57,176 nt of DNA from Promethearchaeota archaeon (lineage in GTDB: Archaea > Asgardarchaeota > Lokiarchaeia > Sigyniarchaeales > SOKP01), in contig JAEOTP010000049.1 of assembly GCA_016839765.1 (NCBI GenBank), positions 1 through 57,176 on the forward strand, read 5' to 3'. Numbering within the stretch: position 1 is the first letter of the stretch; every line of letters starts with the position of its first letter. Positions 33,806 to 46,423 of this stretch are shown here, one piece after another. Both the position numbers and the translations under genes were made by a program. The notes under the pieces are model-generated. The model ran no database searches. It was not told the DNA's origin and was given only the letters and a program-made list of their open reading frames with translations.

Positions 33806-33936
33806 GCCTCTGTGGCTTAGCAGTATAGCGATTATCTTATTATTTCTGATAAGATTGCTAAAGATTCGTAATCTGTAGGTCGGGGGTTCAAATGCAGAGA
33901 AAATCCTTCTCTAAAGAATAATTCCCCCCAGAGGCT
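33806..33936 (+). tRNA. probable tRNA-Thr (CGT) with two inserts (introns)
   Basis: Acceptor GCCTCTG (33806-33812) pairs with CAGAGGC (33929-33935), discriminator T. The gene is 131 nt. T stem GGGGG (33882-33886) and CCCCC (33924-33928) are separated by TTCAAAT plus about 30 nt that contain the hairpin AGAGAA/TTCTCT. A second insert of about 29 nt (33830-33858) holds the hairpin ATCTTAT/ATAAGAT. Removing both leaves a 72-nt cloverleaf: D stem GCT/AGC, anticodon stem AAAGA/TCTGT (one A-G mismatch), loop TTCGTAA, variable AGGTC. Inserts then fall near positions 25/26 and 60/61. The D loop lacks the usual GG. If instead one insert is at 37/38, the anticodon would read TAT but the variable loop would be abnormal. 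Overlaps the stop of the convergent GTPase gene. Confidence 0.62.
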
Positions 33937-34954
33937 ATATCTCTATATCCTCAGCGGTTAAGTATTTCTTTATGATTTGTAATGCTAGCATTTTAAAGGC
34001 ATCATCTATATTTTCTCCTGTTTTTGCTGATGTCTCAACATATGATAATTTAAGTTTTTGGGAAAGTGTTTCACCTTCTTTAGTTGAAACTACTCTATCA
34101 TCTTTTAAATCAATTTTGTTTCCAACTAATATCAGTGAGATTCTTGGTGAAGCTTTATTTATTTCATTAAACCAATTTTCAATATTTACGAAAGAAGTTT
34201 TATTAGTTACATCAAAAACAAGAATTCCCGCTTCTGCGTTGGCCAAGTAAGATTGTCTAACCCGCTTAAATTGTGCCTGGCCCGCTAGATCCCAAATTAC
34301 AAAACGTACAGCGCTCTGTAAACCCTCAAATTTGCATTCTTTTTTCATGATTGAAGTTCCAATTGTTGATTTGTAATCTGTAGCAAATGTATTTTCTACG
34401 AACCTGTGTACCATACTGGTTTTACCCACATTACCATCCCCTCCTAATATTAATTTAAATGCATACTCTCCAGATTTTATTCTAACTTTTTGGAGTTTAT
34501 CTACTTTTCTTTGAATATTCTTAGTATCTTTTTTAGCTATTAATTTTGGGATAACTGGACTTACCGATCTTCCGTCAAAAATTCTAGCAATTTTTTCAGC
34601 GGCTAAATATGCATAAGGAAATATCGGATCAACTCCAGCAATCGCATCTAAAATAGTTACAAATACTGCTTCTGGTCCAGCTTCACAAAAAATTAATCTA
34701 TATTCTTCAGTATCGAAAGTACCTGTTCCAAAAGAACCAGAACTAAACTCTTCAGTAATTCTTGTTAATACAGGTTCTACTAACGCACTAACGCCCCCCA
34801 CAATTTCCTCATCTAAAGTATTCTTTGATGATTTAGCTAAAGCATCAATCACTAACCCTTCTCTATTTACAACAAGTACAGCGACTAAATAATCTCCAAC
34901 ATTTTGCGAATACCATTCTAGTAATGCCTTCAATTTTTTTGTATCAATTGACAA
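33935..34954 (-). CDS. roadblock/LC7 domain fused to Rab-like GTPase
   Basis: 339 residues. Residues 1-130 are a roadblock/MglB-type domain (YLVAVLVVNREGLVIDALAK, IVGGVSALVEPVLTRITEEF, AVFVTILDAIAGVDPIFPYA). After a basic linker (140-165), residues 166-330 form a complete GTPase: G1 GDGNVGKT (172-179), switch I STIGTSIM, G3 WDLAGQAQF (221-229), G4 NKID (279-282), G5 TSAK (308-311). The residue after the catalytic Gln is Ala, not Glu. In bacteria MglB is a separate protein that activates MglA; here regulator-type and GTPase domains are in one chain. The C-terminus is acidic and lacks a lipidation site. Confidence 0.92.
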   Translation of the reverse strand: MSIDTKKLKALLEWYSQNVGDYLVAVLVVNREGLVIDALAKSSKNTLDEEIVGGVSALVEPVLTRITEEFSSGSFGTGTFDTEEYRLIFCEAGPEAVFVTILDAIAGVDPIFPYAYLAAEKIARIFDGRSVSPVIPKLIAKKDTKNIQRKVDKLQKVRIKSGEYAFKLILGGDGNVGKTSMVHRFVENTFATDYKSTIGTSIMKKECKFEGLQSAVRFVIWDLAGQAQFKRVRQSYLANAEAGILVFDVTNKTSFVNIENWFNEINKASPRISLILVGNKIDLKDDRVVSTKEGETLSQKLKLSYVETSAKTGENIDDAFKMLALQIIKKYLTAEDIEI

Positions 34955-44950: not shown

Positions 44951-46423
44951 TTAACCTTTCACAACACCAACAGGGACTAATCTAACTACTTTTTCTACAA
45001 TGCCTAAGTCATGGCTTACCTGAACAACTTGATCAATGTCTTTATAGGCTCCAGGTGCTTCTTCTGCTATTATTTTCATCGAAGCCGCTTTTACTAAAAT
45101 TCCTCTATTACTTAAATCATCCTTTACTCTGGCACCCCAATATTTCTTCGTGGCTTTAGATCTAGACATTAATCTACCAGATCCATGGGCTGTAGATCCA
45201 AAAGAAAGTTCCATTGCTTTAGGTTTTCCCACACATAAATATGAAGCACTTCCCATTGTACCAGGAATTAATGCTGGTTGTCCGATTTCTTTATATTCTT
45301 GAGGAAGTACTGGATGTCCAGGTGGAAATGCTCGAGTAGCACCTTTACGATGCACATTTAATTTCATTTTTTTACCATCTACTTCATGCTCCTCGATTTT
45401 TAAAATATTATGACAAACTCCATAAATTAAATGTAAACCCAACTCATCAAAATTCTTATTAAAATGATGTTGGAAGGACTCTCTTATCCAATGAGTTATC
45501 AATTGACGATTTGTAAACCCAAAATTAGCTGCGCAAGCCATTTGACTAAGATAATTTTGTGCTTCTGGAGTATCTGCTGGAACACAAGCTAATTCCCTAT
45601 CTGGTACTCTAATATTATATTTATTCATTGCACGTTCTATGTTACGTAGTGAATCTGTGCAAACTTGATGACCAACTGCTCTTGAACCAGTATGAATCAT
45701 AACCGTGATTTGATTCTTTTCATTTATTCCTAATTTTTTCGCAATGGATTCATTGTATATCTCATCAACTTTCTGAATTTCCAGAAAATGATTACCACTT
45801 CCTAATGATCCAAGCTGTTTAATTCCTCTTTCTTTGGCTTTTTGAGAAATTAGACTTGCATTAGCATCTTTTAAACATCCCTTTTCCTCACAATATTGAA
45901 GATCCTCTTCAATCGCATAGTCATTATCTAAAGCCCAATTCATTCCTGTATTCAAAACCTTGTCTAGATCTGAATAACTAATGTTAAGTTTACCCTTTGA
46001 ACCCAAACCTGAAGGTATATTTTTAAAAATTGTATTTATTAGGCTTGGAATGCTGGTTTTTATATCTTTAAACATTAAATTCGTTCTCAATAACCTAACT
46101 CCACAATTAATATCATACCCTACACCCCCTGGTGATATCATTCCCGTATCTGCATCTGTACCAGCAACTCCACCAATACAAAAACCATATCCTTGATGAG
46201 CATCCGAAAGTGCGATTACATGTTTTTCAACTCCTTGTAAACAAGCCACATTTGCTATTTGATCAAGAGTTCTGTCTCCCTTGATTTTTTCCAAGATATA
46301 TTCATTAGCATAAATATGTACCGGTACCTTCATCTGAAATTTCTCTATTCTCCCCCCTACTCGCGCCATCAACGTCTTAGGTGGTATCTCGTATACATTG
46401 TCAGCAACTTTATTCACATTCAT
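44951..46423 (-). CDS. rtcB: tRNA-splicing RNA ligase RtcB
   Basis: 490 residues, complete, no intein. Metal-binding and active-site segments are ALSDAHQGYGFCIGGVAG, GGVGYDINCGVRLLR, LGSGNHFLEIQ and MIHTGSRAVGHQVC. The guanylate-accepting histidine region is TAHGSGRLMSR. RtcB joins 2',3'-cyclic phosphate and 5'-OH ends after tRNA intron excision. With archease alongside and an intron-bearing tRNA at 33806, the splicing pathway is represented, except for the endonuclease, which is not in this window. Confidence 0.97.
   Translation of the reverse strand: MNVNKVADNVYEIPPKTLMARVGGRIEKFQMKVPVHIYANEYILEKIKGDRTLDQIANVACLQGVEKHVIALSDAHQGYGFCIGGVAGTDADTGMISPGGVGYDINCGVRLLRTNLMFKDIKTSIPSLINTIFKNIPSGLGSKGKLNISYSDLDKVLNTGMNWALDNDYAIEEDLQYCEEKGCLKDANASLISQKAKERGIKQLGSLGSGNHFLEIQKVDEIYNESIAKKLGINEKNQITVMIHTGSRAVGHQVCTDSLRNIERAMNKYNIRVPDRELACVPADTPEAQNYLSQMACAANFGFTNRQLITHWIRESFQHHFNKNFDELGLHLIYGVCHNILKIEEHEVDGKKMKLNVHRKGATRAFPPGHPVLPQEYKEIGQPALIPGTMGSASYLCVGKPKAMELSFGSTAHGSGRLMSRSKATKKYWGARVKDDLSNRGILVKAASMKIIAEEAPGAYKDIDQVVQVSHDLGIVEKVVRLVPVGVVKG

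Follow-up and report, generated by a model that had tools for sequence, protein, structure and literature searches.

The gene for tRNA-Thr(CGT) of an uncultured Lokiarchaeia archaeon was found at positions 33806-33936 (+) of the window, i.e. of the whole stretch of 57,176 nucleotides that was analysed. The gene comprises 131 nt and includes two introns. The acceptor stem (GCCTCTG/CAGAGGC) and the T stem (GGGGG/CCCCC) are both perfect. A previous inspection, the sequence-only reading, had described a 131-nt locus with these two stems, about 30 extra nucleotides in the T loop with an AGAGAA/TTCTCT hairpin, and a second insert of 29 nt with an ATCTTAT/ATAAGAT hairpin. All of these elements were verified, the T-loop insert being exactly 30 nt long (33892-33921) and the other insert lying at 33833-33861. 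The latter had been placed near position 25/26 of the tRNA; the best splicing puts it at 28/29. The features are as follows:

33806-33936, + strand: tRNA-Thr(CGT) gene with two introns, discriminator base T33936 included (from the best splicing and the orthologues)
33806-33832, + strand: exon 1, acceptor 5′ strand and D arm, mature positions 1-28 (from the best splicing)
33827-33830, + strand: BHB 1 central helix, 5′ strand AGCG (D-stem 3′ strand and position 26), pairs with TGCT 33856-33859
33831-33833 and 33860-33862, + strand: BHB 1 bulges ATT and AAA
33833-33861, + strand: intron 1, 29 nt, mature position 28/29, relaxed HBh′ motif (from the best splicing and shuffles; missing in intronless orthologues)
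33834-33855, + strand: intron 1 hairpin, ATCTTAT 33834-33840 with ATAAGAT 33849-33855 (from covariation)
33856-33859, + strand: BHB 1 central helix, 3′ strand TGCT, invariant in six aligned orthologous introns
33862-33891, + strand: exon 2, anticodon arm (anticodon CGT), variable loop, T stem 5′ strand and T-loop TTCAA
33882-33885 with 33923-33926, + strand: BHB 2 outer helix, the T stem slipped by one
33886-33889, + strand: BHB 2 central helix, 5′ strand GTTC (positions 53-56), pairs with GAAT 33916-33919
33890-33892 and 33920-33922, + strand: BHB 2 bulges AAA and AAT
33892-33921, + strand: intron 2, 30 nt, T loop, mature position 58/59, strict hBHBh′ motif
33896-33912, + strand: intron 2 hairpin, AGAGAA 33896-33901 with TTCTCT 33907-33912 (from covariation in the class)
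33916-33919, + strand: BHB 2 central helix, 3′ strand GAAT
33922-33936, + strand: exon 3, T-loop TT, T stem 3′ strand, acceptor 3′ strand and discriminator
44954-46261, - strand: RtcB RNA ligase domain (PF01139, 568 bits), presumed exon-joining enzyme

The neighboring gene (33935-34954, - strand) encodes a GTPase and is convergent with the tRNA gene; the TAG stop codon of the GTPase gene shares the final two bases of the tRNA gene, and the same overlap is present in the closest relative (G023).

Predicted splicing of the gene and its orthologues

All splicings of the region that are consistent with bulge-helix-bulge (BHB) motifs were enumerated exhaustively, and the resulting cloverleaves were scored. 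A single clear best splicing was obtained, with two introns, a mature length of 72 nt including the discriminator and the anticodon CGT, while the runner-up scored 11 points lower. Removal of both introns, which had led the sequence-only reading to the same 72-nt product, yields a canonical tRNA-Thr(CGT) that matches the intronless orthologues, and G18A is its sole departure at a nearly invariant site. No better cloverleaf was found in the locus by the exhaustive search, and no second tRNA-Thr(CGT) gene was found in the 96%-complete assembly; both had been named in advance as possible objections. As had been suggested for verification, a bulge-helix-bulge is present at each junction, a strict hBHBh′ motif at intron 2 and a relaxed HBh′ motif without outer helix at intron 1. 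When the introns were shuffled with fixed boundaries, the observed BHB score was reached in 0 of 200,000 cases for intron 1 and in 46 of 200,000 cases for intron 2, and the fold of the whole 131-mer had a z of -3.87. The gene was absent from the list of ARAGORN (bacterial mode), and the Rfam tRNA model gave only 15.4 bits compared to a cut-off of 29 bits. No match to an Rfam family, be it a group I intron or another catalogued structured RNA, reached the gathering score at 33806-33936. Standard tRNA tools overlook genes of this type or score them wrongly, and gaps in the codon decoding of Asgard genomes may therefore be artefacts.

The adjoining GTPase shares 98% identity with its counterpart in Candidatus Lokiarchaeota isolate Yap2000.bin6.138. 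In the relatives the tRNA gene is convergent with the same GTPase gene. At this orthologous site both introns are present in G023, G012, G001 and G005, while G010 and G022 have only intron 1 and an uninterrupted T loop (TTCAATT). SZ_4_bin8.338 has no intron, and the sequence of G007 is continuous through both intron sites. Four other orthologues have a canonical 37/38 intron of 19-27 nt, and further ones have insertions elsewhere. Across the orthologues the mature tRNA is nearly constant, while the introns are completely different. The occurrence of orthologues with both introns, with intron 1 only, with none or with a 37/38 intron confirmed the intron boundaries. Both introns belong to a pool that is rapidly gained and lost, and a single orthologous site with zero, one or two introns, together with the T-loop class of fixed length that is found in dozens of genomes (see below), offers a direct route to the study of intron gain, loss and movement.

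Exon 1 differs from the genus consensus by three transitions, 33822 G18A, 33830 A26G and 33832 C28T, the first at the nearly invariant G18. Compared to G023, four transitions are concentrated in the 18 nt of 33822-33839 (three in exon 1 and one in the intron), while there are no changes in 51 nt of upstream intergenic DNA and in exons 2 and 3. A donor for gene conversion of the changed exon 1 stretch was not found, as the genome has no other exact match. Local recombination or an assembly error could account for the cluster, as could a weakened function of the gene. Such an accumulation in an exon of 27 nt, next to introns and flanks that are nearly identical to those of G023, would be in line with a decaying gene copy that has ordinary BHB introns and is losing its function, and ACG codons would then be read by tRNA-Thr(TGT), a gene for which is present in the genome. 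This explanation is improbable, because pairing is retained in the acceptor, D, anticodon and T stems, both BHB motifs form (A26G retains a G-U pair), the remaining exon sequence is identical to that of G023, and the genome did not yield another tRNA-Thr(CGT).

Intron 1 was also supported by covariation. Its hairpin of at least 7 bp differs in sequence between six orthologues, and nevertheless 97% of the cells are paired, compared to 33-50% with the partner strand slid; double changes, on both sides, were found in 5 of the 7 hairpin pairs. The boundary 28/29 is preferred over 25/26, because it is the sole one that combines a central helix of 4 bp, two bulges of 3 nt and a paired anticodon stem of 5 bp; a candidate intron at 25/26 had a lower score and broke the anticodon stem. 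Other boundaries of intron 1 with a 4-bp helix do exist, albeit with lower scores, and the same two introns could in principle be excised with intron 1 cut elsewhere, e.g., at 25/26. That is very improbable, since splicing at 28/29 also reproduces the sequence of the intronless orthologues and the TGCT-AA end of the intron is unchanged in the six orthologous introns. Both inserts fold as stable hairpins in the unspliced RNA, but it is hardly credible that they are retained in an unusual tRNA-like molecule with extended arms, because their presence differs between close relatives at one site with constant exons, because without splicing the T-loop TTC and A58 would be separated from T59-T60 and the contact between the D loop and the T loop would be impossible, and because the same class of insert is found in many different tRNAs.

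T-loop introns in Lokiarchaeia

T-loop introns are present in at least six tRNAs of the genome, i.e. Thr(CGT), Thr(TGT), Lys(CTT), Trp(CCA), Val(CAC) and Ile(TAT), at position 58/59 or 59/60. The underlying list of the tRNAs of the genome was drawn from searches, contains clear parses only and may be incomplete; some low-scoring or partial loci were misparsed and left out (e.g., L014, L015, L020, L021, L024 and L067). The genes for tRNA-Glu(TTC) (L022, G000:C56:7591-7731) and tRNA-Met(CAT) (L016, G000:C15:16834-16969) of the same genome parse with two introns each, indicating that multi-intron tRNA genes are common in it. In three other genomes (G002, G008, G014) tRNA-Thr(TGT) genes (L045, L046 and L049) were noticed that have an intron of 28 nt in the D arm as well as one in the T loop. 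Two further tRNA genes of the genome were recorded. One is a second tRNA-Cys(GCA) gene (L008, G000:C46:825-897) with the T loop TGCAATT and a D loop devoid of GG, so that the 18-55 contact is altered on both sides. The other is an intronless tRNA-Sec-like gene of 88 nt with the anticodon TCA (L026, G000:C34:4362-4449), which suggests the use of selenocysteine.

A covariance model of the 58/59 type had matches in 90 of 228 Asgard genomes, including 64 of the 65 genomes of the same family. The model and the underlying BLAST search are biased to similar introns, and therefore a pattern was run that is blind to the intron sequence. Nothing is specified in it apart from the tRNA half-site and the GAAY end, which are separated by 10-40 free bases, and introns of 16-46 nt are allowed. 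In the 65 family genomes it had 136 matches, compared to 2 with the reversed pattern. Among the 126 distinct sequences in these matches, the implied intron length was exactly 30 nt in 92 and 29-32 nt in 117. In the 30-nt set the hairpin pairing was 86%, compared to 40% in shuffles. Covariation was also observed for the T-loop class, with 93% paired cells versus 42-61% after sliding and with 90 double-change cells. A tandem-gene pattern that was run as a further control returned nothing and was uninformative. An apical motif GAAAWNUCUUC had been considered as a feature common to all T-loop introns; it was found in the BLAST and covariance-model sets, but the blind pattern revealed other loops, e.g., cUUCGg, and the motif is therefore not claimed.

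In another Asgard family (47 genomes) the blind pattern had 21 matches versus 4 in the control and the lengths were scattered, indicating that the expansion is mainly one of this lineage. Single cases of T-loop introns from other Asgard families parse well. The similarity of pairs of T-loop introns was also compared across all tRNAs. The introns of Thr(CGT) and Ile(TAT) are identical at 19 of 24 positions outside of the constrained 3′ end, a value that was reached in 6 of 200,000 cases under a structured null. Such likeness would be expected if introns move between tRNA genes, and going by the shared intron sequence, the T-loop introns have most likely spread among tRNA genes by transposition or gene conversion. 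The retention of the 30-nt length among unrelated sequences suggests that a constraint is acting, and not descent alone. It is conceivable, with slightly less than even chances, that the T-loop introns of Lokiarchaeia are a distinct spreading class. A member would be an element of about 30 nt ending in GAAY, which could land at 58/59 in any tRNA, because the T stem and the GTTC half-site are ready-made. If this is the case, the constant length among members with unrelated sequences would point to a measuring constraint, exerted by the endonuclease or by the geometry of the T arm, and the expansion in the family would have gone in step with an endonuclease with a broad-specificity loop.

Splicing endonuclease and proposed processing

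The sequence-only reading had argued that a splicing endonuclease of broad specificity would be needed, and the genome encodes an enzyme that is predicted to be of this kind. It has two genes for PF01974 proteins, an alpha subunit of 201 aa (L031) and a beta subunit of 205 aa (L032), each with PF01974 and PF02778. The best match of the alpha subunit is the alpha chain of Aeropyrum pernix (3p1z_B, E = 3e-37), and its lysine K59, in the motif GINKPR, is aligned to K44 of the "Crenarchaea-specific loop" of A. pernix. According to the alignment the catalytic Tyr and His are kept in alpha (GADFVVY, EHSP), while beta lacks the catalytic His (EKNAAK) and the loop. It is this loop, with its lysine, that gives the A. 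pernix enzyme a broad specificity extending to relaxed motifs (reviewed in PMC6379350). Two endonuclease subunit genes were also found in 16 of 18 further Asgard genomes. The loop lysine is present in all 15 alignable Asgard alpha subunits, from 14 families, and absent in M. jannaschii. The name "Crenarchaea-specific" is thus too narrow, as the loop is conserved in every Asgard alpha subunit examined. The RtcB gene is located about 11 kb from the intron-bearing tRNA gene.

Taken together, the locus is very probably a functional single-copy tRNA-Thr(CGT) gene, the transcript of which contains two BHB introns from the rapidly gained and lost pool and is processed to the 72-nt tRNA. This explanation is based on the anatomy of the locus, the junction structures, the comparative boundaries, covariation and the gene content, from which we infer transcription, cleavage and ligation, the order of events and the mode of spread. 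The heterotetrameric (alpha-beta)2 endonuclease would cleave within the bulges on either side of each intron, and the exons would be joined by RtcB. Intron 1 would borrow the D-stem 3′ strand and position 26 as central helix, so that BHB 1 would compete with the D stem. As it lacks an outer helix, its excision should need the relaxed-motif activity provided by the extra loop of alpha, judging from the Aeropyrum enzyme. Intron 2 would use the tRNA's own T arm, with an outer helix formed by the T stem in a register shifted by one and with G53-T54-T55-C56 paired to GAAT near the 3′ end of the intron. BHB 2 would tie up these four nucleotides, and thus the elbow contacts and the modifications of the T loop would presumably be possible only after splicing. 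In energy models the BHB forms lie above the minimum; the penalty relative to the free fold is about 1.2 kcal/mol when BHB 1 is imposed and about 5 kcal/mol for BHB 2. With these differences of 1-5 kcal/mol, the enzyme probably selects or stabilizes the BHB forms.

Comparison with known systems

The endonuclease resembles the (alpha-beta)2 enzyme of A. pernix (PDB 3p1z, 3ajv; PMC6379350) in having two paralogous subunits and a catalytic alpha subunit with the loop and a lysine equivalent to K44. It differs in that it is from an Asgard archaeon, that its activity is predicted, and that the loop is shared across the Asgard families. The coevolution of tRNA introns and broad-specificity endonucleases becomes testable with these data outside of the Thermoproteota, in the archaea that are closest to the eukaryotes.

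In the Thermoproteales, tRNAs with multiple introns and intron transposition have been described (Sugahara 2008 and Fujishima 2010, as cited in PMC4033280 and PMC4090602). According to these descriptions their introns are likewise short BHB introns at canonical and non-canonical sites, with up to three per gene, and similar introns occur in different tRNAs. Such similarity between different tRNA genes, beyond the shared structural constraint, was also found here (Thr(CGT) and Ile(TAT)). The Thermoproteales are, in contrast, hyperthermophilic Thermoproteota, and the comparison was made at the level of the published descriptions. The sequence-only reading had regarded multiple non-canonical introns as known chiefly from the Thermoproteales. 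This has been overtaken by a 2024 report on the Asgard lineages Atabeyarchaeia and Freyarchaeia (PMC11291895), according to which 92-95% of the tRNA genes have introns, which are often non-canonical, and over half carry several. That Asgard tRNA genes can have multiple non-canonical introns was thus already known, and the present locus adds another case. Both lineages differ from the Lokiarchaeia, and the main text of that report does not treat a fixed-length T-loop class, the relatedness of introns or the endonuclease loop. No paper on such a class or on an Asgard-wide endonuclease loop was found in the literature searched, which lacked most subscription journals and preprints; judging from it, neither the T-loop family of locked length nor the presence of the loop throughout the Asgard archaea seems to have been described.

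Introns in the T arm are mentioned in general terms for archaea (PMC12397907). In Cyanidioschyzon merolae, a eukaryote with another endonuclease composition, a T-arm intron of tRNA-Ile(UAU) blocks the formation of Psi55 by Pus4 (PMC9602550), and this block of a modification by an intron is the same effect as is predicted here for the T loop.
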